11,867 bases of DNA from Candidatus Latescibacterota bacterium (GTDB lineage: Bacteria; JAAXHH01; JABIQT01). The notes under the pieces are model-generated. The model searched no databases, was not told the origin of the DNA, and saw only the letters and a program-made list of their open reading frames with translations. The DNA is taken from positions 1 through 11,867 of the forward strand of contig JABIQT010000046.1 in NCBI GenBank assembly GCA_018667995.1, read 5' to 3'. Below, piece after piece: positions 120-11,867 of the stretch. The stretch's first letter is position 1. Each line of letters opens with the position of its first letter. A program made the position numbers and the translations under genes.

Positions 120-1361
120 TTGGCGACTACCAGTACCCTTCGCATCGCATGGCGCAATCTGGGACGGAACCGAAAACGCACCTTTCTTGCCGTATCGGCC
201 ATTGCCCTGGGCCAGCTGACGTTCCTCGTGATTTCCGCTCTGATGAATGGATACGGCGACCAATATTTCAATTCCATCACAGGCCCGTTGATCGGGCACA
301 TTCAGATTCACGCTCCTGAATGGCGCGAAGACCGGTCCATCGATCTGGCCATTGACGACCTCGGGGCCCGCCTGGAACAGCTGCGAGCCGATCCCGGCGT
401 AGCTCATGCCGCACCTCGTATGTATGCCCCTGTGTTAGCAGCGTTGACGGATGAGGGATTCATGGGCATGGTCATTGGCATAGACGCCCAGGTAGAGTCA
501 CACGATTCCGGACTCTTAGCAGGTCAGGATTTATCCGGCCAAATGGGAGAACGGCGTGTTCTTGTCGGAAGCACCTTCGCCAGAAAATATGACATTACCC
601 CTGGTATGGAATTGGCGGTGATCGGTCAGGATGTAGACGGTTCTATCGCCAATGACCTCTTTACCGTTACCAATATCGTCTCGTCACAGGTAGACATTGT
701 AAACAGCCTGGGCATCGTCATGTCAATTGAGGACGCTCAGGAGTTTCTATTGATGCCGGATCAGGCCCACGAAGTGCTGATCCATGTGAAAGAACCCGAG
801 ATGGTCTTGGAAGTTGTTGCCGGTTTGTCGACGTTGCCTGTCGTTGATGGCCTGGAAATACTGCCGTGGCGGGAAATAGTGCCTCAACTCGTTTCAATGA
901 TAGATATGATCGGAGCATTTACACTCATCATACTCGTCATTGTGTTTATCGCAGCTGCAGCGGGCATAACAAACACTATGCTCATGTCCACATACGAGCG
1001 GATTCACGAATTTGGAATGCTCCTCTCACTGGGATGCCAGCCGAACCGCCTCGGGCGCATGGTAGCCGTAGAGGCTATGCTGCTCGGGCTGGTGGGGGTC
1101 ACAGTGGGTTCCGCACTGGCCATCGGCGTGGTGCTGTTGACTATGGACTCGGGACTGGATTACGCCGCTCTTGGCGGCAACGATGCATCCTACCAGGTGG
1201 CGTTTCAGGGGATGCAGATCACGTCGCGGGTGACCCCCAAGCTCCTGCCGACTGATATAGGTATCGGTATCGTCGCAGTTCTGTTCACCTCCTTCATCTC
1301 AGCTCTGTGGCCCATGTTACACATCGTACGCCTCGAACCTATGGAGGCCATGAGATCTTGA
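120..1361 (+). CDS. ABC transporter permease, FtsX/MacB (LolC/E-like) family, first of pair
   Basis: This 413-residue inner-membrane permease has the type VII ABC layout. A basic N-terminal amphipathic stretch (RIAWRNLGRNRKR, residues 8-20) leads into TM1 (about 21-43). A large periplasmic MacB-PCD-like domain follows (about 44-258), then an FtsX core with TM2 (about 264-288), TM3 (about 316-342) and TM4 (about 378-401). The cytoplasmic loop after TM2 (YERIHEFGMLLSLG, 292-305) matches the conserved coupling region 'ERxxEFGxLxAxG' of LolC/LolE and MacB proteins. The C-terminal RLEPMEAMR is also typical. The TTG start at 120 is chosen because the N-terminal basic helix begins there, it sits 2 bases after the previous stop, and no in-frame ATG lies near. 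Its Shine-Dalgarno is weak, so coupled translation is likely. It probably pairs with the next permease as a heterodimer. Confidence 0.9.
   Translation: MATTSTLRIAWRNLGRNRKRTFLAVSAIALGQLTFLVISALMNGYGDQYFNSITGPLIGHIQIHAPEWREDRSIDLAIDDLGARLEQLRADPGVAHAAPRMYAPVLAALTDEGFMGMVIGIDAQVESHDSGLLAGQDLSGQMGERRVLVGSTFARKYDITPGMELAVIGQDVDGSIANDLFTVTNIVSSQVDIVNSLGIVMSIEDAQEFLLMPDQAHEVLIHVKEPEMVLEVVAGLSTLPVVDGLEILPWREIVPQLVSMIDMIGAFTLIILVIVFIAAAAGITNTMLMSTYERIHEFGMLLSLGCQPNRLGRMVAVEAMLLGLVGVTVGSALAIGVVLLTMDSGLDYAALGGNDASYQVAFQGMQITSRVTPKLLPTDIGIGIVAVLFTSFISALWPMLHIVRLEPMEAMRS
1343..1347 (+). promoter_or_regulatory. Ribosome binding site deciding the TTG start of permease 2
   Basis: GGAGG lies inside the end of permease 1, 10 bases before TTG 1358. 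It supports that TTG over an in-frame start further upstream at 1307. Confidence 0.6.
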
Positions 1362-2599
1362 GCAGCTCACTGGTGTCCAAATTCGCCCTACGATCGCTCG
1401 GAAGGAACATCCGCCGGACCATTCTTTCCGTGGCCGGGGTGGGCATAGGCTGCACGGTAGCACTCTTTCTGACGGCCTTTGTGCGAGGGAGCAACGAGTT
1501 GCGTATCAGGTCGATCGCGGACAGCGGATTCGGACATGCGCGAATTGCACCGGCGACATGGGAGAAGCAACGGGACAACGACTTACGCCTCCAAAATGGT
1601 GTCCGAGATCTGGCTGTGCTTCAAGGTACTGAAGGCGTGAAGGTCGCAGCCCCCCATTCCCGAATAACTGCTCTTCTGGCCTTCGGTACGAGAGTAATTG
1701 GCGTAGAGATGCTGGGTGTCGACCCCCAGATGGAAGCCCTTCTGAACAGGGTCGTCCGAACCGTCAGCGAGGGACGCTATCTTCGAGCTGACGACCGCGA
1801 TGCCGTAGTCATCGGAAGTGTGATAGCCGACAGACTGGAAGTAACGATAGATGATGATCTTTTCATGACGGTCGTTGACCATGCCGGGCAGATGCAATAT
1901 GCCATGGTGCGTATCGTCGGCATCGCCCATACCGGAAGCAAAGAACTGGATACGGGCATCTGTCATATTTCTCTTGATGACGTCGAGCGTCTGACCGGAT
2001 ACGCGGGTAGTGCAGAGATCTCCATAACCTTCGATGATCCACTTAGCATCGACGAGATGGTGGCACAAATTGAAGGCGAACTGCCCACCGGTGATATCAT
2101 ATTGCCCTGGAACGAAGTGCTGCGCGCGCAGGGCGGGGACGCAGCCAGCGATCAGGGCTTCATGCGATTGTTGTCTATAATTGTAGTAGTGGTCGTAATT
2201 CTGGGAATCACAAGTGCCCAACTGACCGCCATGCTGGAGCGCAGACGCGAATTCGCAGTGCTCATGGCATTGGGAATGAAGGATCTACAGGTCATTCGAC
2301 TCGTCACGATAGAAGCCCTCGTGCTGGGCCTGATGGGAGCTGTAGCAGGCCTGTTACTAGCGACGCCTCTCGTCTACTATACTGCAACCAATGGAATTGA
2401 CTTCTCAGCAATGGTCGAAGGCGACTTTGCGATTGAGGGCGTCCTATTCGATCCCATCCTTTACACAGATTTGGGATACTGGATGGTACCACATGCATTG
2501 ATCATCGCTATTGTCTCTACGCTCGTTTCGGCTCTATATCCAGCCTGGTTCGCGATCAGAACTGATCCCACCTCAGCGCTCAGTCTGCGGGAGGCTTGA
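1358..2599 (+). CDS. ABC transporter permease, FtsX/MacB (LolC/E-like) family, second of pair
   Basis: This 413-residue permease has the same architecture as its upstream neighbour. It has a basic N-terminus (FALRSLGRNIRRT, 9-21), TM1 (about 22-43), a periplasmic domain (about 44-265), and TM2 (about 270-291). The cytoplasmic coupling loop is LERRREFAVLMALGM (293-307). TM3 (about 315-341) and TM4 (about 376-399) precede an IRTDPTSALSLRE tail. TTG 1358 is taken as the start: it overlaps the upstream stop as TTGA, has GGAGG 10 bases upstream, and puts the basic helix at the right place. A longer frame from 1307 would add 17 residues that are only the out-of-frame end of permease 1. The two permeases diverge strongly in the periplasmic domain, which suggests a LolC/LolE-like asymmetric pair rather than a recent duplication. 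Confidence 0.9.
   Translation: MSSSLVSKFALRSLGRNIRRTILSVAGVGIGCTVALFLTAFVRGSNELRIRSIADSGFGHARIAPATWEKQRDNDLRLQNGVRDLAVLQGTEGVKVAAPHSRITALLAFGTRVIGVEMLGVDPQMEALLNRVVRTVSEGRYLRADDRDAVVIGSVIADRLEVTIDDDLFMTVVDHAGQMQYAMVRIVGIAHTGSKELDTGICHISLDDVERLTGYAGSAEISITFDDPLSIDEMVAQIEGELPTGDIILPWNEVLRAQGGDAASDQGFMRLLSIIVVVVVILGITSAQLTAMLERRREFAVLMALGMKDLQVIRLVTIEALVLGLMGAVAGLLLATPLVYYTATNGIDFSAMVEGDFAIEGVLFDPILYTDLGYWMVPHALIIAIVSTLVSALYPAWFAIRTDPTSALSLREA
2589..2594 (+). promoter_or_regulatory. Ribosome binding site deciding the ATPase start
   Basis: GGGAGG sits 7 bases before ATG 2602 but only 1 base before the alternative TTG at 2596. The ATG is therefore the start. Confidence 0.7.
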
Positions 2600-2601
2600 A
2601 C

Positions 2602-3312
2602 ATGAGCGATACGCTCGTGGACATCAAGAAGGTCGTAAAGGAGTTCCACACAGGAAAAGTGGCTGTACAGGCACTGCGCGGAGTGGACCTGGTGGTGAAG
2701 ACCGGTGACTTCATGGCTATAGTCGGACCCAGCGGAAGTGGCAAAACGACACTTCTCAATATCATTGGGGCACTGGATATTCCCACTGGCGGAAGCGTCA
2801 ACCTATTCGACCGAAATCTCTCTGAGTTGAGCAGAAAGGACCGGGCGGACCTCCGTCTACACCAGCTTGGATTTGTATTTCAGGCCTATAATCTCGTACC
2901 CGTTCTAACAGCTCGCGAGAACGTGGAGTTTGTATTGGAGCTCCAGGGAGAGGGCAATGGGCGTGAAACGACAGCATTGGCCACGCTGGAGTCGCTTGGA
3001 CTCGCAGATCTGGCCGACCGACGTCCTACCGAAATGTCCGGGGGACAACAGCAACGCGTTGCCGTTGCTCGGGCGGTCGCATCGAAACCCAAGTTAGTAC
3101 TCGCGGACGAGCCTACGGCAAACCTTGACAGTGAGAATGCGGAGACGCTTCTCAAAATGATGCGAGACCTGCGGGACACACACGATATGACCTTTGTGTT
3201 CTCTACCCATGATCCTCTGGTTGTGTCATACGCGTCACGTGTGGTGACGCTCCGAGATGGTGTAGTCGTAAGTGATGAGCAAAGAAACGGTGACGAAATA
3301 GGGGAGGATTGA
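2602..3312 (+). CDS. ABC transporter ATP-binding protein, LolD/MacB type
   Basis: This 236-residue cytoplasmic ATPase powers the two adjacent permeases. All nucleotide-binding motifs are intact: Walker A GPSGSGKTT (42-50), Q-loop Gln94 (FVFQAYNLVP), signature SGGQQQRVA (146-154), Walker B LVLADEP (165-171), D-loop ANLDS (173-177) and H-loop STHD with His203. The FQ-YNL-P-LTARENVE stretch after the Q-loop is characteristic of the LolD/MacB/FtsE-like subgroup that pairs with FtsX-type permeases. The length is normal for a stand-alone LolD-type subunit. MacB instead fuses the ATPase to its permease. The ATG start lies 2 bases after the permease 2 stop. The barrel gene follows after 4 bases. An ortholog name such as lolD is not assigned because substrate is unknown and several paralogous systems share these motifs. 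Confidence 0.95.
   Translation: MSDTLVDIKKVVKEFHTGKVAVQALRGVDLVVKTGDFMAIVGPSGSGKTTLLNIIGALDIPTGGSVNLFDRNLSELSRKDRADLRLHQLGFVFQAYNLVPVLTARENVEFVLELQGEGNGRETTALATLESLGLADLADRRPTEMSGGQQQRVAVARAVASKPKLVLADEPTANLDSENAETLLKMMRDLRDTHDMTFVFSTHDPLVVSYASRVVTLRDGVVVSDEQRNGDEIGED
3301..3307 (+). promoter_or_regulatory. Ribosome binding site for the TTG-started barrel gene
   Basis: GGGGAGG overlaps the last codons of the ATPase gene and lies 9 bases before TTG 3317. It supports a non-ATG start. Confidence 0.65.
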
Positions 3313-3316
3313 ACCA

Positions 3317-4576
3317 TTGCGTCATCGAATCATAGGGTCATTGGTTGCTCTGCTTCTGTTGGTGCCCTGGCAGGTCGCCCAGGCAATCGAGCTCTGGTCC
3401 AGCAAATCTGGTGATCGATACTACATATTCGACGCCGCACTCAAGTGGACATCCCTGGTCTCTCACGCACCCAAAGATCTTCTTCTATTTCCCGAACGTT
3501 GGAGCGGCACCACGCTCTGGCGGGGACGAATGACCGTGGGCGCTCAACCCGTCCCCTGGATCAACTTCAGACTAGCCTACGAGCAGAGAACTCGAAACGT
3601 CTCACAGCAGTCAGGCTCCGCTGGATCGGGTTTTCTCCTGCCCACGACTCGCGCGCCCTACCGCATCTCTCAGCTCGACGCGAAGCTGGCAGAAGTAGGT
3701 AACACCTTCTCTTACCGTCACGAAGTGGACCGGGCATTTGCCGCCTTTCATTCTGGCGACCTCGAACTCACCGTGGGGCGGCAGCCTATCGGATGGGGAC
3801 GCGGCCTTTTTTTCGGCGCTGTGGATATATTCGCCCCTTTTTCGCCGCTGGAAAGCGATCGTGAATGGCGACGCGGTGTCGATGCCGTCCGCAGCAGCCT
3901 TCCGCTATCGGATCTCATCTCGCTCGAAACACTCGCCGTTATGGACAAGTCGCTCGAATCGTCTGCCTTCGCGGCACGTTTGCAGGGCTATGTAGGTGAT
4001 ATAGACGGTGAAGTGATGATTGGTAAACGAGCGGACGACTATTTTTCTGCCGTGACGACATCCTTGCCTATGCTGGGAGCAGAACTTCATGGAGAGGTCG
4101 CGCTGTTCAGAACGGCCGACGGAGCAGGACTGGGGCGCAACGACACCGTCATCAAAGGCGTGGTTGGCGGTTCATACGGCCTGAATGCGTCTGGCCAGTT
4201 CTTGATTGCGGCTGAGTATCACTACTCCGGGTTCGGTGTCAATGACATCACCCAAGCTCAGTTCCAACTCCAGAATCCACGATTGCAGGCTCGCTTTGAG
4301 AGGGGCGATAGTCAGATTCTCGGTCGACATGCAGCGGCCTTTCAGCTTTCATACGGTGTGGGCGGTGCCGCCCCCCTGGGCCTATCATGGATCTTCAGCC
4401 CAGAGGACAGATCCGGGGTGATCACGCCATCCACTCGGTGGCTCTTTTCGGACAATGTAACGCTCATCGGGCAGCTTTATGTGGCGCACGGCAGTCATCC
4501 CGTGAACGGAAGAATCACCAGTGAATACGGCGCAACTCCCACTGGAGGCTTAATCCAGATCAGCTTCTATTATTGA
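3317..4576 (+). CDS. Outer-membrane beta-barrel protein (uncharacterised) of the exporter operon
   Basis: This 419-residue protein begins with a Sec signal peptide: basic MRHR, a hydrophobic core of about residues 6-17, and probable cleavage after AQA (21-23). The mature part alternates polar and hydrophobic residues as in transmembrane beta-strands and ends in GLIQISFYY. A terminal aromatic is the usual outer-membrane barrel insertion signal. A central segment, LTVGRQPIGWGRG...DIFAPFSP (151-177), resembles the 'GRQ-I-WG-G----DLFNPF' motif of porin-like families such as DUF1302-type proteins. I cannot name the family with certainty. TTG 3317 is preferred because the signal peptide starts exactly there and GGGGAGG precedes it. 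It is the last gene of the ABC/LolA-like operon, so it may be the outer-membrane endpoint or acceptor for exported cargo; that role is inferred. Confidence 0.8.
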   Translation: MRHRIIGSLVALLLLVPWQVAQAIELWSSKSGDRYYIFDAALKWTSLVSHAPKDLLLFPERWSGTTLWRGRMTVGAQPVPWINFRLAYEQRTRNVSQQSGSAGSGFLLPTTRAPYRISQLDAKLAEVGNTFSYRHEVDRAFAAFHSGDLELTVGRQPIGWGRGLFFGAVDIFAPFSPLESDREWRRGVDAVRSSLPLSDLISLETLAVMDKSLESSAFAARLQGYVGDIDGEVMIGKRADDYFSAVTTSLPMLGAELHGEVALFRTADGAGLGRNDTVIKGVVGGSYGLNASGQFLIAAEYHYSGFGVNDITQAQFQLQNPRLQARFERGDSQILGRHAAAFQLSYGVGGAAPLGLSWIFSPEDRSGVITPSTRWLFSDNVTLIGQLYVAHGSHPVNGRITSEYGATPTGGLIQISFYY

Positions 4577-4591
4577 GGCATGGGCAGCCTC
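4575..4591 (+). terminator. Weak stem-loop at the end of the exporter operon
   Basis: GAGGC (4575-4579) and GCCTC (4587-4591) form a 5-bp stem with a 7-base loop, starting in the stop codon of the barrel gene. No T-run follows, so termination activity is doubtful. Confidence 0.25.
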
Positions 4592-5447
4592 CGCGTTGTT
4601 TGCGCCGTGCTCCCGGTCCGCACTTTGGCCTGGCCATGGCCTGTTTTATCATCTTGATCATTCCGGCCAGGCGTCCAGACTGTCCATCTGATCGAGTATT
4701 TGCCCTTTGAATGGTATCTCTCGCATTGCCCATCTCGTTCACAGAATTCGAAACTGTGCATTTATTTTGGACCCCTTACGCCTGCTATTCGCCCATTCCT
4801 TTACCGCCCGGCATACGCGTCGGCATGCAGTTGATGCGCCTCACCTTTCGCTCTTTCTTGTCCTAAAAACCGTGATAGCACCGAGACCTGAACCGCCTGA
4901 CGGTAGGTTCCATCCTGTCCTGTCTCCGGGCAATGACAGTACCAATCGATTCTATCGGCCTTTTTTTGGGTTTCGGTGCAGCCAACATTATGTCGCTGAC
5001 AATCTATTCCGTATCGCCGGTGCTCAAGCCGCGAAAATATCACGAGGCAGGCTTCGATCAGCTTTCACACATATCATTCAGAAACACATCGAGTTGGCTG
5101 AAGTGGATCACGGTCTGCTTCTCGGTGGCCGAGGTGTCTGTGCTGGTCGCGGAATTCATAGTACCCACAGCAAATCTCTAACCGCCAGAGACACTACACG
5201 GGGCGCGATTACCATCTTCACATCTCCGTTGGGTATCTACCGCTGGAAGGTAGGTAGTGAAGCTTGTCAGTGCATAATTCAACAGAAAATGAACTTCTAT
5301 AACATGCCCAGTGCAATCCTTAGGGATGACATAGATATTTGCATCTCGCATAACAAGGGGCATTGACTTCTCTCGTAGACTTTCGGGTTATTTGACGGAA
5401 CGAGTCTTAACTATTTACAGTCGTATACCATAGAAATGATTCTTTTC
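4577..5447. other. Long intergenic stretch without a supported gene
   Basis: About 870 bases separate the barrel gene from the structured leader of the next operon. Open frames exist on both strands: one of about 219 codons on + at 4707-5366 and one of 82 codons on + at 4933-5181. None has a Shine-Dalgarno site at a plausible start, a recognisable motif or a sensible composition. The longest is rich in His, Arg and Ser, as shadow frames usually are. A short inverted repeat, CCTGGCC at 4629-4635 and GGCCAGG at 4665-4671, is the only structure noted near the operon end. The stretch could be a decayed gene, an unrecognised RNA, or simply spacer. Confidence 0.5.
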
Positions 5448-5547
5448 GGTCGGCAGGATGGAGACCATCGGAGTATCAGAGAGACGACCTTAACCCCTAC
5501 CGTTTTCCCTCTATGTTATTCGAACAGACTCAGATTCTGCGTTCTGA
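5448..5547 (+). promoter_or_regulatory. Structured 5' leader upstream of the YHYH gene
   Basis: Three small inverted repeats lie in the leader. An outer GGTCG (5448-5452)/CGACC (5485-5489) pair encloses a GATGG-AGA-CCATC hairpin (5457-5469). A further TCAGA (5530-5534)/TCTGA (5543-5547) pair has an 8-base loop. All stems are only 5 bp. The nested arrangement suggests a folded leader RNA, but no known riboswitch class is recognised. No convincing promoter hexamer pair was found beside it. Confidence 0.25.
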
Positions 5548-5568
5548 AGCTTGAAGCGTACCCTCATT

Positions 5569-5575
5569 AAGGAGG
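5569..5575 (+). promoter_or_regulatory. Consensus ribosome binding site of the YHYH gene
   Basis: AAGGAGG is 5 bases before ATG 5581. It rules out the in-frame start at 5551, which would add 10 residues before the signal peptide. Confidence 0.8.
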
Positions 5576-5580
5576 CAACC

Positions 5581-6318
5581 ATGAAGGCATACAGGGCCGT
5601 ACTGACGTTCGTCGCACTTTTCGGTCTACAGTGCGACGATTCCAACCCGACGAGCTCTACAGGATCAACCGGATCTACAGGCGGGACCAGCACATCATTG
5701 CCGTCCGCATTTAACCATTTCGTCGATGCGGTGACCGTCTCCGTGCAAGGCACCAATATCGTGCTCGAAGCCGAAGGTATTCCAAACCATACGAGTCCCT
5801 ATTGGGGCAGTAGCCATGCTCTGTATGAGGCTCCGCACTCAGGTATGGTGGTCAATCCAAATAACATCGCGTCCCAAAACCTGACCTTCACCATACCTCT
5901 TCAACCGGAGGTAGCCCCTACCATTAGCGCTACCTCGCTTGGCCCCGTGGGCATTGCGGTCAACGGCGTCGTTCTGTACAATCAATATGCGGCCGGAAAT
6001 GCCCCGCTGACCAGCGAGATTTTGTCATTCGATCGGCGGAATGGGCACCCTCAGAATTTTGGCCAGTATCATTACCACATTGAGCCACTCTTCATTACGG
6101 AGAATGGTAGCGAACTGGTTGGGTTCCTGCTCGATGGCTTTCCTGTGTATGGCCAAAAGGACCAGAACGGCACTTTGCCTACTGATCTCGATACGGCTCA
6201 CGGGCATACTGGCGTAACACACGATTATCCCGACGGAACGTACCATTACCACATCACGACGGACGCTCCCTATATCTCAGATGGATATCGCGGTTCACCA
6301 GGTACCGTGACTCAGTAG
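5581..6318 (+). CDS. YHYH domain protein, probable exported lipoprotein
   Basis: This 245-residue protein has a short N-terminal signal (MKAYRAVLTFVALFGLQC) with Cys18 in a lipobox-like position. Gln at -1 is atypical, so lipidation is likely but not certain. A Ser/Thr/Gly linker (STGSTGSTGG, 26-35) follows. The rest matches the YHYH domain (PF14240) by its paired motifs: GPVGIAVNGV (121-130), GHPQNFGQYHYHIEP with YHYH at 163-166, LLDGFPVYG (183-191), then AHGHTG (207-211 region) and YPDGTYHYHIT with YHYH at 221-224, and a SDGYRG end. The many conserved His and Tyr residues suggest metal binding, but no activity is established for the family to my knowledge. It starts a three-gene run ending in a SCO copper chaperone, so an envelope copper or redox role is inferred. 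The start is set by AAGGAGG. Confidence 0.88.
   Translation: MKAYRAVLTFVALFGLQCDDSNPTSSTGSTGSTGGTSTSLPSAFNHFVDAVTVSVQGTNIVLEAEGIPNHTSPYWGSSHALYEAPHSGMVVNPNNIASQNLTFTIPLQPEVAPTISATSLGPVGIAVNGVVLYNQYAAGNAPLTSEILSFDRRNGHPQNFGQYHYHIEPLFITENGSELVGFLLDGFPVYGQKDQNGTLPTDLDTAHGHTGVTHDYPDGTYHYHITTDAPYISDGYRGSPGTVTQ
5656..5682 (+). repeat. 9-bp imperfect tandem repeat in the YHYH gene linker
   Basis: Three 9-base units encode STG-STG-STG in the spacer between the lipidated Cys and the folded domain. The first and third units differ only at their last base. Such a linker may vary in length between strains. Confidence 0.5.
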
Positions 6319-6331
6319 GAGAAATGTGACA

Positions 6332-6976
6332 ATGGCGAGTACAAGGAAATTCATGATCATCTCCGCTATCATCGTCCTACTCTCAGGGACCAGTTTTGCT
6401 ATTTCTGTCAGTGAATCAGATATGATTTTCAGTGCGAAAATCCACACGCCAGTGGAAATTCCAGATATATCGATCGACCGAAGTGAAACGATTATAGAAA
6501 ATGGCGTCCTGCTCCACGGGAATATCCCCTATTCTGGGCGCGTCCATCGAACCGCTAATAACGGTCAGCTTAACCTCGTCACAGAATACCTAAACGGCTT
6601 AAAACACGGTACTTCTGAGTCAAGGTATGAAAATGGAGACCGGGCCGAGGTCCGGCACTATGAATACGGTCACAAGACGGACGTTCACATTGGTTGGTGG
6701 CCAAACGGTAGAATGAAGTTTTCATACGGATTCTCGGAGGGAAGGTACGAAGGCGCATTCCTCGAATGGTACAGCAGCGGGCAGCAGGCCACGGCATTCA
6801 ACTATGAGGATGGAGTAGAGATAGGTACCCAGAGGGCGTGGCGTTCCAATGGAAAGCTCTACATCAACCTGGTATACAAGAATGGAAAACGCTATGGCGT
6901 ACTTAGAACCAAGCCCTGTTTTCAGATAGTTGACGGACAGCGCAATTCCCTGGAGGAGCCTGATGAGGCATTTTAG
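6332..6976 (+). CDS. Exported MORN/YwqK-like repeat protein
   Basis: This 214-residue protein has a Sec signal peptide: basic RK, a hydrophobic core of about residues 8-18, and probable cleavage after SFA (21-23). The remainder is a run of roughly 22-25-residue repeats built on the MORN-like pattern 'NG...G....Y..G': NGLKHGTSESRYENGD (88-103), WWPNGRMKFSYGFSEGRYEGAF (122-143), YSSGQQATAFNYEDGVEIGTQ (147-167), and RSNGKLYINLVYKNGKRYG (171-189). This is the organisation annotated as 'YwqK family antitoxin', a name that overstates function; here export argues against a cytoplasmic immunity role. AGGAG at 6317-6321 lies 10 bases before ATG 6332 and 4 before an in-frame GTG at 6326, so the start could be either. 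The 3' end overlaps the SCO gene by 14 bases, indicating co-translation. Confidence 0.8.
   Translation: MASTRKFMIISAIIVLLSGTSFAISVSESDMIFSAKIHTPVEIPDISIDRSETIIENGVLLHGNIPYSGRVHRTANNGQLNLVTEYLNGLKHGTSESRYENGDRAEVRHYEYGHKTDVHIGWWPNGRMKFSYGFSEGRYEGAFLEWYSSGQQATAFNYEDGVEIGTQRAWRSNGKLYINLVYKNGKRYGVLRTKPCFQIVDGQRNSLEEPDEAF
6952..6958 (+). promoter_or_regulatory. Ribosome binding site deciding the SCO gene start
   Basis: GGAGGAG inside the end of the MORN-like gene lies 4 bases before ATG 6963. It supports that ATG over the in-frame start at 6930 and gives a normal lipoprotein signal. Confidence 0.7.
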
Positions 6977-7613
6977 CGTCGCGTCCATCTTGATTCTAAC
7001 CGCCATTGCCGGATGCACGACCGATCCGGCAACAGATATGCTACCGTATTACAGTGACGCGGACCTGACACCTCAGTGGATAGACGCAGATGATCCGATG
7101 TACCACCAAATTCACACGATCGCCCCCTTCCATTTGATAAACCAGAATGCCGATGTGGTAACTGAAGATACGTTCGCTGGGAGCATATATGTGGCCGACT
7201 TCTTCTTCGCGACCTGCCCAGGAATATGTCCTACGATGACAAAGAACATGCTAACGATTCAGGAAGCCTACAGGAACGATTCCGACATTATGTTCCTGTC
7301 GCACTCTGTAACTCCTGAAATCGATACACCAGAGGTGCTCAATCGCTACGGTGAGGAGTACGGCATTCTGCCGGAGAAGTGGCACCTGGTCACTGGGGCA
7401 CGTGAGGAAATATACACACTAGCGCGACAGTCCTATTTCGCGGAAGAGGACTTGGGCTTACCAGTAAATGAGAGTGATTTTCTTCATACGGAGCTGTTCT
7501 TTCTCATCGACACAAACGGTCGCATTCGTGGCATCTACAAGGGTACATTTCCCAACGAGATGACGAGATTGATAGCGGACATTAAGCTGTTGAAGGAAGA
7601 AGGTCCGGCTTGA
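6963..7613 (+). CDS. SCO1/SenC family copper chaperone lipoprotein
   Basis: This 216-residue thioredoxin-fold lipoprotein carries a clean signal and lipobox (IAGC, Cys18). It is therefore predicted to be membrane-anchored in the periplasm. The SCO metal site is complete: DFFFATCPGICPTM with Cys85 and Cys89 in CxxxC, and His175 in DFLHTELFFLID. The 86-residue gap from the second Cys to His equals that of the well-studied Bacillus subtilis Sco protein. Family members deliver copper to, or reduce, the CuA site of cytochrome c oxidase. No oxidase genes are visible here, so the client is unknown. The gene overlaps its upstream neighbour by 14 bases and closes the YHYH-MORN-SCO run. ATG 6963 is preferred because of GGAGGAG and because the lipoprotein signal begins there. 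Confidence 0.95.
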   Translation: MRHFSVASILILTAIAGCTTDPATDMLPYYSDADLTPQWIDADDPMYHQIHTIAPFHLINQNADVVTEDTFAGSIYVADFFFATCPGICPTMTKNMLTIQEAYRNDSDIMFLSHSVTPEIDTPEVLNRYGEEYGILPEKWHLVTGAREEIYTLARQSYFAEEDLGLPVNESDFLHTELFFLIDTNGRIRGIYKGTFPNEMTRLIADIKLLKEEGPA

Positions 7614-7670: not shown

Positions 7671-8339
7671 TCATTGAACCGCGAGTCGCTCGCGGTCGAG
7701 CCGGGTCAAGAACGGCTGTACCTTGGATACGAACTGATCGACGGAGGTTTCAGGCGAATCATGACTGGTATCAATTTCCATCTTATTCCCGATTCTTGAG
7801 GCATGGAAAGCTGCACTAAACAAACGGGATACCCGATCGATATCTTCTTCAGGAACCACAGGATAGGGATGCAGCGCATCCTTCATACGGCGAGCGATGA
7901 CCTCCTCGTCGGCACGGATATGCAATAGTACCGTCTCGGGTGCAAGGTTCATGATAATAGATTCGATTTTCTTCGAATGAATCTCCCGATCGCCTGGTTG
8001 CTGTGGTCCGCCATACTGGTAATATAACCGGGCGTAAATCGTATCCTCTATGTAGTGTCCAATGGTGATATTGTCGTCGTTCACGGCACTCTCATGTGGC
8101 GTGTGATAATATAGATTATGCCGCATATAGGATTCCAGCAGGCGTGTGCTCAACCCCAGCACCTGCTTGTGCTCCTGCTTCGACAGTCTATCCGGATAAT
8201 GGGCGACGACGTCCGGAATCTTCCAATGATCGTGGATCAAACCGAGGTCCGCACCCATTGCCTTCTGCGCCCACCGATGTATTCCCACCGCAAGGGTGGT
8301 AGTCCCTGAATACTCGCACCCAATTATATACAGCCGCAT
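7671..8339 (-). CDS. P-loop NTPase, nucleoside/nucleotide kinase-like, atypical Walker A
   Basis: This 222-residue protein opens with a beta-strand and a P-loop-like motif, YIIGCEYSGTTTLA (4-17). The position normally held by Lys in GxxxxGK[ST] is Thr13. An acidic pair follows a hydrophobic stretch (GHYIEDTIYARLYY, 94-107). LLHIRADEEVIARRMK (138-153) resembles the strand plus LID helix of small-molecule kinases ('L-adpevi--R'). The best guess is a kinase-like or sulfotransferase-like P-loop protein; the substrate cannot be told. Loss of the Lys could mean altered nucleotide use or loss of activity. ATG at 8339 is chosen with GAGGG (8344-8348 on the + strand numbering) 4 bases upstream. It is the last minus-strand gene and converges on the SCO gene. 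Confidence 0.7.
   Translation of the reverse strand: MRLYIIGCEYSGTTTLAVGIHRWAQKAMGADLGLIHDHWKIPDVVAHYPDRLSKQEHKQVLGLSTRLLESYMRHNLYYHTPHESAVNDDNITIGHYIEDTIYARLYYQYGGPQQPGDREIHSKKIESIIMNLAPETVLLHIRADEEVIARRMKDALHPYPVVPEEDIDRVSRLFSAAFHASRIGNKMEIDTSHDSPETSVDQFVSKVQPFLTRLDRERLAVQ
7678..7696. terminator. Perfect 8-bp hairpin at the convergent gene junction
   Basis: ACCGCGAG (7678-7685), loop TCG, CTCGCGGT (7689-7696). It lies in the last codons of the minus-strand P-loop gene and 64 bases past the SCO stop. Because it is symmetric it could slow polymerases from both sides. Neither strand has a following T-run, so a classic intrinsic terminator is not shown. Confidence 0.35.
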
Positions 8340-8385
8340 TCATCCCTCTATCTGCGATCTCTCATGGTACGCCACAGAGGCTGCT

Positions 8386-8424
8386 AAGAGGTCTCATCCG
8401 CCCGGCGGCAGGAAGAAACCTCTT
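8386..8424 (-). terminator. Long stem-loop between oxidoreductase and P-loop genes
   Basis: On the minus-strand RNA, AAGAGGUUUC and GAGACCUCUU form a 10-bp stem with one G-U pair. The 19-base loop can itself fold as CCGC-CGG-GCGG. On the + strand the same position would be a C-A mismatch, so the structure favours minus-strand transcription. Only a short UU follows, so it may be a terminator, attenuator or processing site separating the two genes. Confidence 0.4.
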
Positions 8425-8466
8425 TCCCGGACAGATCCAGGATTCACTTGGCCACAACCCGCTTCG

Positions 8467-9504
8467 TTAAAGGGGAATTGAGATGGCTTTGCCCTCGGCC
8501 ATACTGCGGTTGACTGCTTCGGTGAACTCCATATACTTCACACCTGTGTCAAAAGTGGTATGGGTAATAGCCTCTTCGCCGCGAATGGCTCCTATGAACT
8601 CATCCTCCACCCGCCAACCACCCCGCTCGGTGTCAGGAATAGCGATCTCCTGCAAGTCAGAATCACCACGCCGCGCACCATAGAGTGCGCCGCCCGAGAT
8701 GCGGAGCGTCCCCTCACTTCCATAAATATTGGCGTCGGCCACACCGCCAAACCCCTGGACGGAGGAGACCATCATGTACCCCTGAGCGCCACAAGCAAGA
8801 TCCATGATAACATCAATATGTTCTGGTACCCTGGCGACACGCATATGATTGGTAGCGCTATCATGGCGCATCTTCACAAACGTCTTTCCCTGTGCCATGA
8901 CGGATGTCGCTTCACCTACCCACCGCAGCATAGCTTCGTACCAGATGCCCATGCTCATGATGTTGAGTCCGCTGAGATCGTAGTCCTGGCGCCATTGTAT
9001 GGGCCCATCGCTGTCCAGGAAATCGTTTCCGGAAGCCCGGAGTTCGACCGAGAGGATATCTCCGACATATCCGTTGGCAATATGACGCTGAATAGTCTTA
9101 TCCGCCCAAAGGGTCATCGGCGATGGCACAATCTGGGCAACCAAGTCCGGATGTTCTTGCGCCACATTACGCATGACGTAGGCCTCTTCAGCATTCATAG
9201 CCATCCGTGCCTCTGTCATCACGTGCTTTCCGGATGCGAGAGCTGCGAGCACGAGTGTGCAGTGCATATATGGCCAGGTCCCTATCACGATCGCATCCGT
9301 ATCGTCTGCCTCGATCAACTCGGCCCAGTTGTTGTATACGGTGCTGATTCCGAACTGCTTGGCGACACGCTCTGAGGATTCCCGACTCCGGTTGCAGACA
9401 CTGACGATCTCAACGCCATCAATGGCCAACAACCCCGGGATGTGTTTTCCAACGGTATTCGTGCCTGCCCCAATAATTCCTACGCGTATGGTATCGTTAC
9501 TCAA
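8467..9504 (-). CDS. Gfo/Idh/MocA family oxidoreductase, EAR variant
   Basis: This 345-residue protein has an N-terminal Rossmann fold with VGIIGAGTNTVGKHIPG (8-24) for NAD(P) binding. Residues 71-80 (AIVIGTWPYM) and GKHVMTEARMAM (92-103) match the usual family layout. The second half is the alpha/beta substrate domain, including the GSEGTLRI motif (262-269) common in this family. The canonical EKP triplet, whose Lys is generally catalytic, is EAR here (98-100). A 'GKHV--xARMA' subgroup exists in the family as I recall it, so this is probably a real variant and not an error. The substrate is probably a sugar, inositol or derivative, but cannot be specified. The TTG start is supported by AGGAGGG 6 bases upstream. 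It lies 25 bases after the SGNH hydrolase, in one transcription unit. Confidence 0.9.
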   Translation of the reverse strand: MSNDTIRVGIIGAGTNTVGKHIPGLLAIDGVEIVSVCNRSRESSERVAKQFGISTVYNNWAELIEADDTDAIVIGTWPYMHCTLVLAALASGKHVMTEARMAMNAEEAYVMRNVAQEHPDLVAQIVPSPMTLWADKTIQRHIANGYVGDILSVELRASGNDFLDSDGPIQWRQDYDLSGLNIMSMGIWYEAMLRWVGEATSVMAQGKTFVKMRHDSATNHMRVARVPEHIDVIMDLACGAQGYMMVSSVQGFGGVADANIYGSEGTLRISGGALYGARRGDSDLQEIAIPDTERGGWRVEDEFIGAIRGEEAITHTTFDTGVKYMEFTEAVNRSMAEGKAISIPL

Positions 9505-9510
9505 TTTAGA

Positions 9511-9517
9511 CCCTCCT
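9511..9517 (-). promoter_or_regulatory. Strong ribosome binding site for the TTG start of the oxidoreductase
   Basis: AGGAGGG on the minus strand is 6 bases before TTG 9504. This near-perfect site makes the TTG call secure. Confidence 0.8.
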
Positions 9518-9529
9518 GGTCATTTAGTG

Positions 9530-10573
9530 TCAACTGTCGATCTTTATTGTATAGGTCGAACTTCCGTTACCACAACCTTTTCTACTCATCACTCCTGCCA
9601 GATAGCGTGCCATCTCCTCCATACCAGAAGGCGACGGATGTACCAGATCCGCTGTCAAACCAGTCATAGTGGATAGCATGTCCATTCCTGACACATGAAC
9701 GAGCTTGGGCAAATTCAGCGCCTCTACCTGCTTCTTGACGACCGTTCTGAATGCATCAGCCTTTGGATCGGCTGCAAAATCCCATCGGCAGGGGAATACG
9801 TCGATACAAAAAATCCATTTGTCTGGGTGCGCTCTAGCAATGGTAGGAATAAAGTAGGCAACCCGACGCTCGAACTCCTCTACCTCAATCGAACCGAGCA
9901 AATTGATGCCTAATTCCATGGATGCGAAATCCCAGTCGTCACGACCCGAGATGTAATCGGCCATTGATGGTTCCAGATGGGCACCGCCACCAAACCCGAG
10001 GCTGATGAGATCCACACTCAGAAATTGAGCTGTCCGCATGGCATAGGTGCCAGTGGGGCGCACCGCGTTACTGCCGTGGGTTATGGAGGATCCATATGCC
10101 AGATAACGCACGTCGGGCGTCTGATCCGCGCGCGGAAGCGTGGTTTCCCCTTCTATGGATAGCAGGCGGCACGGCGGACGCCAGGGCAATATCACTCGTG
10201 ACAGGCCGATATCGTAAGGTAGGTCGTGGGATCGTGTCAATTCTCCGAGGCGGTCTGTGTTTGCATGGCGGGTCACGACGACCTCGGTCGGATCGAGTCC
10301 GATGGTATGCACGCTTGACAGAAATGAGCCTTGATATACCTCGACGATGGCCGGCACCGGGGATGCCCCCGTGTCCCTCAGCGTGATTCGTGCCTCGTCG
10401 CCTGTCAGGTTAAAGCGCACCTCTGACCCAGGTGTCGCCACCGCATTGTTCATAGCAGAACTGTTGAGGCCTAATCGAAGCGCATTTGGAATGCGAGAAA
10501 AGGTCTTGCTACCGTCGTCCCCCTCATCAAGCAGCTCGTGCACATTGTACAATTCTACATCTTTATAGATCAT
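9530..10573 (-). CDS. SGNH/GDSL-type hydrolase with N-terminal beta-rich domain
   Basis: The protein has 347 residues. The first 145 or so form a beta-rich domain of the kind that precedes the catalytic domain in several GDSL esterases, including SsfX3-like proteins. The SGNH domain follows: block I YLAYGSSITHG (158-167) with nucleophile Ser163; a glycine-rich block II (SLGFGGGAHLEP, 191-202); block III ELGIN (220-224) with Gly222 and Asn224; and block V ADLVHPSPSG (308-317) with Asp309 and His312. All four catalytic blocks are present. The GDS triplet reads GSS, as in many GDSL_3 members. It likely removes acyl or acetyl groups from a sugar or other ester; the substrate is unknown. No signal peptide is seen, so it acts in the cytoplasm. 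The ATG start has AAAGGGG 5 bases upstream. The amidohydrolase stop lies 26 bases before. Confidence 0.9.
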   Translation of the reverse strand: MIYKDVELYNVHELLDEGDDGSKTFSRIPNALRLGLNSSAMNNAVATPGSEVRFNLTGDEARITLRDTGASPVPAIVEVYQGSFLSSVHTIGLDPTEVVVTRHANTDRLGELTRSHDLPYDIGLSRVILPWRPPCRLLSIEGETTLPRADQTPDVRYLAYGSSITHGSNAVRPTGTYAMRTAQFLSVDLISLGFGGGAHLEPSMADYISGRDDWDFASMELGINLLGSIEVEEFERRVAYFIPTIARAHPDKWIFCIDVFPCRWDFAADPKADAFRTVVKKQVEALNLPKLVHVSGMDMLSTMTGLTADLVHPSPSGMEEMARYLAGVMSRKGCGNGSSTYTIKIDS

Positions 10574-10599
10574 TCTTGCCCCTTTATCTGGGTATCAAG

Positions 10600-11352
10600 T
10601 CAGCCTAATCCAAGCAGGCGTTGGGCATTCCCGCCCAAAACCATTCGCTTGGCTTCATCCGTAATCCGTGCCGTTATGATCTTTCCGATCTGTGGCCGGG
10701 GATCCATCAGTGGAATGTCCGATCCGAACAGTACGCGATCCGCACCAGCAAGGGTCACGAGTTCTTCGATTACTCCGGGAGATCGAAACGTCGAGCATGT
10801 CTCCAGATACACATTGCTATGCCTCTTAGCTGCTGCAATTGCCTCAGCCCGAGCTTCGGGAACATTGCCAGAGTGCCCGGCTACGAACTTCACGTTGGGA
10901 AACTTCGGGGCTACTTTCTCGAAGTATCTCGGCCTGTTGTTCACCAGGTGATCAGTGTGAAGAATGATAGCGAGACCACGTTCATTGGCGAATTCGTAAA
11001 TGGGGTACCAGGGCTCCTGGTCGAACGGCCACGGAGCATATGGAGGATACAGCTTGATCGCCACGAATTCCAGCTCATCTATAGCGCGGGTCAATTCGGA
11101 TATCATCCGATCGGGCATAGTGGGAGACACGTAGGCGAATCCCACGAAGCGATCGGGGTGTTTCGAGACAAAGCGCGCCAGGATATCGTTACCCGTCGTA
11201 CCGTCTGGATGAAATATGGCGAAAAGGCATGAGACATCGATTCCGGCTTTGTCCATGGCGTGAAGCATCAGCGATGGATCGTCTCTCATGCCCCACCGGT
11301 CCCAACGACCTACATGGCCATGAAAGTCGATTACCCGGCTCCCTTCTATCAT
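10600..11352 (-). CDS. Amidohydrolase family 2 (metal-dependent TIM-barrel hydrolase)
   Basis: This 250-residue cytoplasmic enzyme of the amidohydrolase-2 family (PF04909) has a complete metal site. It shows VIDFHGHVG (7-15) with His11 and His13, AIKLYP (98-103) with Lys100, LHTDH (131-135), VAGHSGN (157-163) with His160, and LFGSDIP (208-214) with Asp212. Family members hydrolyse or decarboxylate small ring or acyl substrates (lactones, carboxylated aromatics). The actual substrate here is unknown. ATG 11352 is preferred over GTG 11382: it has GGAG 6 bases upstream while the GTG has none, and the shorter form starts right before the first metal-binding strand. It leads the SGNH hydrolase by 26 bases. 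Confidence 0.92.
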   Translation of the reverse strand: MIEGSRVIDFHGHVGRWDRWGMRDDPSLMLHAMDKAGIDVSCLFAIFHPDGTTGNDILARFVSKHPDRFVGFAYVSPTMPDRMISELTRAIDELEFVAIKLYPPYAPWPFDQEPWYPIYEFANERGLAIILHTDHLVNNRPRYFEKVAPKFPNVKFVAGHSGNVPEARAEAIAAAKRHSNVYLETCSTFRSPGVIEELVTLAGADRVLFGSDIPLMDPRPQIGKIITARITDEAKRMVLGGNAQRLLGLG

Positions 11353-11514
11353 AAGTCGCTCCGCACGTTCAGCATATCTCACCGCAGACTGACAATGGTT
11401 CTATTCCAGATTGTCCCATGGAACATACGTTGGACCTTCGGCGCCACAGACCGGCCGGGTTCGGTGCCATGGAATGCAGATACATGGCTCCCACTGTCCC
11501 GGTACGCCACCCCT
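11353..11514 (-). promoter_or_regulatory. Spacer upstream of the amidohydrolase, with a short inverted repeat
   Basis: This 162-bp gap is the widest in the minus-strand cluster. It contains GACAAT (11391-11396) and ATTGTC (11410-11415), 6-bp arms 13 bases apart, centred about 50 bases before the start. It may hold a separate promoter or operator for the downstream genes, though no convincing -35/-10 pair was found. Confidence 0.25.
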
Positions 11515-11867
11515 TCAGCATAGGATGCGCTCCACGTTCTCTGCACATATGAGGCGCAAGGCCTCATCGCTCAGATCGGAATGGTGAAGGTAATACATCA
11601 TGGGTCCCATGCCGTAGCGCGGGTACCAGGATCCGTAAATCAAACGCTCTGCGCCAAATGTATCACACAGGGACTCGATTTCACCGATAGGCTCATACCT
11701 GCTCAACTCGAGGTGTGCGTTGGGGAGTGCCTTGAGTATAGGCCGGACTAACAAAGCGTGGCTGTAGTGGGCACCGACGAGGACGGTCATCAGCTTCGGA
11801 TACACGCTCAATGTGGAGACTAATTCGTGCGGATCCACATCGGACAGGGGTATCCAGATCGGTATAC
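11515..11867 (-). CDS. Amidohydrolase-like protein, C-terminal part (5' end outside window)
   Basis: An open frame enters from the right edge and runs 116 codons to TGA at 11515-11517. The end has the amidohydrolase-2 C-terminal pattern: a strand ending in VGAHYSH, then a helix, LPNAHLELSRYEP, FGAERLIYGSWYPRYGMGP, and a final LSDEALRLICAENVERIL helix. The 'GAERLIYGS' segment aligns with 'GADRVLFGSD' of the neighbouring amidohydrolase, but the Asp that completes the metal site is Trp here. A GTG at 11838 could start a shorter form, but the frame stays open upstream to the edge, so the gene is treated as truncated by the window. It probably belongs to the same cluster. Confidence 0.75.
   Translation of the reverse strand, partial: IPIWIPLSDVDPHELVSTLSVYPKLMTVLVGAHYSHALLVRPILKALPNAHLELSRYEPIGEIESLCDTFGAERLIYGSWYPRYGMGPMMYYLHHSDLSDEALRLICAENVERILC

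Follow-up and report, generated by a model that had tools for sequence, protein, structure and literature searches.

SCO proteins have a thioredoxin fold, and some of them act in redox reactions. Bacteria, marine phages, and giant viruses all have members of the YHYH domain family (PF14240), which has no established function, and no solved structure of it was found in this analysis. The one published prediction for YHYH gives phage YHYH domains a His-triad and Asp Zn site and a role as Zn-dependent hydrolases (PMC7824862). YHYH also appears among candidates for phage host recognition (PMC7029224), PF14240 is listed among the families prevalent in diatoms (PMC11992049), and a survey of copper genes in Bizionia lists SCO proteins and not YHYH (PMC11213822). 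We found no published description of an operon of YHYH, MORN, and SCO genes in the open-access literature searched, which is weak evidence of novelty, as subscription journals lie mostly outside it.

Gene organization of the window

The window, i.e., the whole stretch of DNA that was analyzed (11,867 nucleotides), is the entire contig C865 of a draft genome of 6.06 Mb that is 85% complete. Genes for a YHYH protein, a MORN-repeat protein, and an SCO protein follow one another on the forward strand and form one operon. The initial annotation had described three same-strand genes with gaps of 13 and -14 bases, and the open reading frame (ORF) coordinates give exactly these gaps. The operon contains the following features:

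5569..5575, + strand, AAGGAGG, ribosome-binding-like site of the YHYH gene (from sequence)
5581..6318, + strand, YHYH gene (245 aa; ATG 5581, stop 6318) of the SCO-linked PF14240 subfamily, product exported and a probable lipoprotein
6332..6976, + strand, gene for an exported MORN-repeat protein (214 aa from ATG 6332; orthologues match MORN_2, and the predicted model is MORN-like)
6963..7613, + strand, gene for an SCO1/SenC-family lipoprotein (216 aa; ATG 6963, stop 7613; from Pfam, conservation, and alignment to 1on4)

GTG 6326 is a possible alternative start of the MORN gene. All three products had been called exported and two of them likely lipoproteins. With signal peptides judged by eye, the lipoprotein call stands for the SCO protein, which has a good lipobox (IAGC), and is less clear for the YHYH protein, whose lipobox at Cys18 is atypical (GLQC; Cys in 96% of homologues). 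The MORN protein of the window has the look of an ordinary signal peptide, and 82% of its homologues have a Cys at the export-signal position.

The upstream genes stop at 4576, about 1 kb before the YHYH gene, and the genes downstream of SCO lie on the opposite strand. Scans for promoters and terminators at the window operon gave results at chance level. The upstream genes form one run (120-4576, + strand) encoding two FtsX/MacB-type permeases, an ABC ATPase, and an exported protein of 419 aa that has no Pfam or NCBIfam match, and the run probably encodes a transporter resembling MacB/LolCDE together with a dedicated partner. The reverse strand (7671-11838) encodes a Gfo/Idh/MocA oxidoreductase, a GDSL lipase-like protein, a P-loop kinase-like protein that matches nothing in Pfam, and, as judged by eye, amidohydrolase-like proteins.

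Conservation of the operon across genomes

Species genomes were scanned with aligned YHYH proteins of the operon type as the query. This returned at least 503 confirmed relatives, of which the best 80 were analyzed, with YHYH, MORN, and SCO genes called at each locus by family HMMs. All three genes were present on one strand in 75 of these 80 loci, the closest to the window YHYH. Their order was YHYH-MORN-SCO in 58 and YHYH-SCO-MORN in 14 loci and SCO-MORN-YHYH in 1, and 2 loci (L023 and L026) had MORN and SCO fused in one frame. Four of the five loci without the full set (L030, L036, L066, and L067) are on short or truncated contigs, and the fifth (L086) is a true YHYH orphan. Hosts of the 80 loci include Bacteroidota, Acidobacteriota, Gemmatimonadota, Calditrichota, and Fibrobacterota, and the same operon is carried on Persicobacter plasmids; in a tree of 78 proteins that was built quickly and left unfinished, the window YHYH clusters with Acidobacteriota. 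This gene arrangement is far above chance expectation, and the YHYH, MORN, and SCO proteins almost certainly act together.

Two organism labels in this set look doubtful, either through mislabeling, misbinning, or transfer: the “Cellulophaga” locus L065 is nearly identical to Flectobacillus, and the “Acidimicrobiia” locus L042 falls inside Acidobacteriota. At five loci (L047, L073, L079, L083, and L091), an additional, longer YHYH gene and, after it, a gene whose small product is similar to the N-terminal part of HupE/UreJ are located directly upstream of the operon, and HupE/UreJ genes adjoin YHYH in L012 and L069. On Loktanella plasmids (L008 and L014), two YHYH genes flank two PEBP/YbhB genes in a conserved-looking arrangement without SCO.

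Recognized copper genes are rare in the flanks of the operon loci. An AraC-type regulator gene and a CusB-like gene occur near the operon in L006, and in L062 (Flavobacterium branchiophilum) the region 2397-5635, near the module, encodes MbnP and a MauG-type di-haem peroxidase as well as a long YHYH protein bearing a Por secretion tail.

Linkage of YHYH and SCO genes in genomes not chosen for SCO

The 80 loci had been found through operon-type YHYH proteins, and PF14240 was therefore searched in 395 Bacteroidota genomes drawn evenly and without regard to SCO, of which the 39 positive genomes were then searched for PF02630. SCO matches were located at most 3 kb from 22 of the 60 YHYH places in this sample, with 0.23 expected under random placement. 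This linkage was concentrated in YHYH frames of at most 305 aa (20 of 20 near SCO; 0.1 expected), whereas full-length PF14240 matches were never near SCO (0 of 24) and the places of neither type seldom were (2 of 16). The P value for the short frames (6e-36) is nominal only, because the border of 305 aa was set after the data had been seen and because the genomes share ancestry. The center of the draw, G096, came from the operon search, and the short-frame count without it is 19 of 19. One genome (G281, the same as locus L143) has YHYH and MORN genes side by side and no SCO gene within the 9 kb read; its YHYH frame has 346 aa and was counted among the others, so that linkage by sequence type is 20 of 21. 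Among 247 Acidobacteriota genomes, G604 and G710 have YHYH linked to SCO, as does G100, which was taken from the operon search, and G688 has a short YHYH that has no second histidine set and no SCO link. The enrichment near SCO genes on which the initial annotation had staked its copper proposal is thus strong in the short subfamily with duplicated sites and missing among full-length PF14240 proteins.

Conserved residues and internal duplication of the YHYH protein

The window YHYH protein matches PF14240 (E = 7e-28; 98.3 bits against a gathering cutoff of 25) and has the conserved D..GH..YHYH core of that family. Among 98 YHYH homologues, H80, D161, H166, H174, H176, D195, D214, H219, H232, and H234 are 96 to 100% conserved (numbered from TTG 5551; subtracting 10 gives the numbering from ATG 5581). 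A profile comparison of residues 117-172 with residues 175-235 indicated an internal duplication (score, 47.3; E = 4.5e-10), with a maximum score of 18.4 in 100 column shuffles, and each half has the pattern hhGhhhxGhxhY followed by D, GH, and YHYH. The two YHYH motifs noted at the outset are therefore both found in the window protein, one in each of two repeats:

5935..6093, + strand, YHYH internal repeat A (residues 119-171; from the internal duplication and conservation)
6031-6033, 6046-6048, 6070-6072, and 6076-6078, + strand, conserved repeat A residues D151, H156, H164, and H166, respectively
6106..6270, + strand, YHYH internal repeat B (residues 176-230; from the internal duplication and conservation; lost in sampled full-length PF14240)
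6190-6192, 6205-6207, 6244-6246, and 6250-6252, + strand, conserved repeat B residues D204, H209, H222, and H224, respectively

The first YHYH motif is retained throughout the wider family. The second set reads HGH..YHYH in SCO-linked YHYH proteins and NGR..YYYV or NGM..YGYY in sampled full-length PF14240 proteins. We considered an intact second set as a marker of SCO linkage and rejected it as more than a one-way rule, since L145, L008, and L005 have the set without SCO nearby. The AlphaFold2 model of the YHYH protein has a mean pLDDT of 88.3, with values above 90 across most of the domain.

Features of the SCO and MORN proteins

The window SCO protein matches PF02630 (SCO1-SenC; E = 9e-27; 94.1 bits against a cutoff of 22.8). 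A further His, in the motif HxI..F before the domain, is 95% conserved. Conserved residues that bear on the function of the SCO and MORN proteins are as follows:

7215..7229, + strand, SCO CxxxC, with Cys codons at 7215-7217 and 7227-7229 (100% conserved in 80 sequences)
7485..7487, + strand, codon of the predicted distal copper-ligand His of SCO (99% conserved; aligns with the His of B. subtilis Sco, 1on4)
6917..6919, + strand, codon of the conserved MORN Cys196 (from ATG 6332) in the C-terminal tail (97% conserved; invariant in alignment A7; low pLDDT)

The window MORN protein itself has no Pfam match, MORN_2 included. Its Persicobacter orthologue (L006) matches PF07661 (MORN_2), and its AlphaFold2 model (pLDDT, 86.5) resembles MORN structures in Foldseek, with a disordered tail that contains Cys196. 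The idea that such a gene belongs to a toxin-antitoxin system originates in YwqK-type names, and we rejected it here, as no toxin was seen and the adjoining genes are those for YHYH and SCO.

Metal-sensor-like regulators upstream of related operons

In 29 of the 67 loci with at least 2.5 kb of upstream sequence, YHYH is closely preceded on its own strand by two genes, one for an extracytoplasmic function (ECF) sigma factor and one for a helical periplasmic protein with a membrane anchor. As a rule, these two genes are separated by a small anti-sigma-like gene. Metal_resist matches were found in 11 of 24 members of the periplasmic protein group and LTXXQ matches in 11 of 24. Compared with solved structures, the profile of this group matched Spy (3.6e-6), NccX over its full length (1.1e-5), and CnrX (0.01 to 0.07), and its conserved residues are His, His, and Cys. 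The order of ECF sigma, anti-sigma-like, and CnrX-like genes is presumably a metal-responsive layout of the CnrYXH type. No such genes are among the ORFs of the window, and none are hidden in the 1 kb upstream of its operon. The CnrX/NccX/Spy-like protein and the ECF sigma factor, encoded in 29 of 67 loci although not beside the window operon, independently support a connection with metal biology.

Proposed function and alternative explanations

The best explanation is that YHYH, MORN, and SCO work as a single unit that handles metal in the Gram-negative envelope. The conservation of the operon, the YHYH-SCO linkage, the conserved ligands, the duplication in YHYH, and the regulator context in relatives form its observed basis, from which we infer the identity of the metal, the direction of its transfer, and the scaffold role of MORN. 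By analogy with SCO proteins, the metal would be copper. The SCO lipoprotein would bind it through CxxxC and His and pass it to the putative His/Asp sites of YHYH, which might store copper or be a copper-dependent enzyme of a new kind. MORN may keep SCO and YHYH together, and its tail cysteine could help to exchange thiols or metal with SCO. In species with the CnrX/NccX/Spy-like sensor, metal stress would free the ECF sigma factor and thereby turn the operon on.

Taken as a whole, a chain that passes copper (or reducing equivalents) from SCO to YHYH on a MORN scaffold has in our judgment an even chance of being right. Counting against the copper chain are the absence of ECF and CnrX-like genes beside the window operon, the scarcity of copper genes in the flanks, and the exceptions G281 and L086; the YHYH domains of phage tails, which have no SCO partner, also point to another metal or role. 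The initial suggestion that YHYH is a copper-handling partner of SCO is thus strengthened by the SCO linkage, which holds for one subfamily, and by the metal-sensor-like genes in 29 of 67 loci, and it is weakened by a window that has none of those genes. A more far-reaching proposal, which we put forward tentatively and with rather more doubt than belief, is that the SCO-linked YHYH proteins make up a class of envelope metalloproteins that is new and has a fold unseen in the PDB, with an internal duplication and two putative Asp/His3 sites. Each would receive copper from its own SCO by way of a cysteine-tailed MORN scaffold, and in many species a CnrX-like sensor and an ECF sigma factor would switch these proteins on.

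Alternatively, the operon may encode a thiol-redox module, in which SCO acts as a thiol-disulfide reductase that keeps the MORN tail Cys or another partner reduced under envelope stress and YHYH is a zinc or iron protein. Besides the fold and redox roles of SCO proteins in general, the single conserved MORN Cys next to SCO would fit this reading, including in the MORN-SCO fusions, where Cys196 is retained directly ahead of the SCO domain, as would the likeness of the upstream periplasmic proteins to Spy, since Spy-like proteins are envelope-stress proteins. However, the distal His of SCO, which serves copper binding and is unneeded for thiol exchange, is kept in 99% of sequences, and the MORN tail Cys is also retained in the G281 protein, where no SCO is near. 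We consider a thiol-redox module unlikely.

A somewhat less probable alternative would make YHYH a Zn-dependent hydrolase of polymers in the envelope or outside the cell, with SCO and MORN serving its folding or anchoring. It draws on the published prediction for the phage domains and on the occurrence of the same domain in phage structural proteins, and viral YHYH proteins do match. The phage-type comparison, however, concerns other branches of the family, and no enzyme fold was matched: Foldseek of the YHYH model against the PDB gave no match below an E value of 0.29, VIA-align gave no Z score of 2 or more among the chains re-examined, and a sequence search for solved relatives returned none that was credible. 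A hydrolase would also leave the SCO link and the CnrX-like sensor unexplained.

SCO might instead serve in the usual assembly of CuA in cytochrome c oxidase and stand beside YHYH and MORN by accident, as it genuinely belongs to the SCO1/SenC family and has the full set of copper ligands. The genome of the window has two more SCO genes, one on contig C350 beside genes for a PCuAC-like protein and a cytochrome c and one on contig C44 inside a cox operon (neighbors named by eye from their sequences), and the canonical SCO roles therefore look filled in this genome and the window SCO looks specialized. No cox or PCuAC gene adjoins the window SCO, its YHYH neighbor is conserved across phyla, and we reject the CuA-assembly reading as very improbable. 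Chance adjacency or shared ancestry without a common function is hardly credible and was likewise rejected, for even though many loci come from related Bacteroidota, so that their counts are not independent, and the frame-length border is post hoc, 20 of 20 short YHYH frames are near SCO against 0.1 expected, and the linkage spans five phyla despite changes of gene order and two fusions.

The proposed metal-handling module thus provides a testable hypothesis, with named partners and residues, for an orphan domain of which one subfamily is linked over a wide range of taxa to a copper chaperone, to MORN, and to a metal-sensor-like regulator, and the regulator context points to an inducing signal for the operon. 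The operon also suggests that the client of some SCO proteins is not cytochrome oxidase. Overall, it is a good lead on the role of one YHYH branch, which is probably the handling of copper or another metal in the cell envelope.

Comparison with known systems

The SCO-linked YHYH proteins belong to the same Pfam family as the full-length PF14240 and phage tail types and have the first D..GH..YHYH set in common with both. In contrast to the full-length proteins, they are shorter, have the second histidine set, and are encoded in an operon with MORN and SCO. The window SCO is of the same family as SCO1/SenC chaperones such as B. subtilis Sco and shares the lipobox, CxxxC, and distal His, but it is tied to YHYH and MORN rather than to an oxidase or PCuAC and has the extra His before its domain. 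Like the CnrYXH and NccYXH systems of Cupriavidus, 29 of the 67 related loci combine an ECF sigma factor with an NccX/CnrX/Spy-like protein and, in most cases, a small anti-sigma-like gene, whereas the genes downstream of these regulators are YHYH, MORN, and SCO instead of those for an RND efflux pump, and the regulators are absent beside the window operon. The copper pair MbnP/MbnH likewise consists of an exported metal protein and a dedicated partner, and both of its genes lie near the module in L062; its sequences, however, are unrelated to those of the YHYH module, and MbnP occurs at that one locus only.
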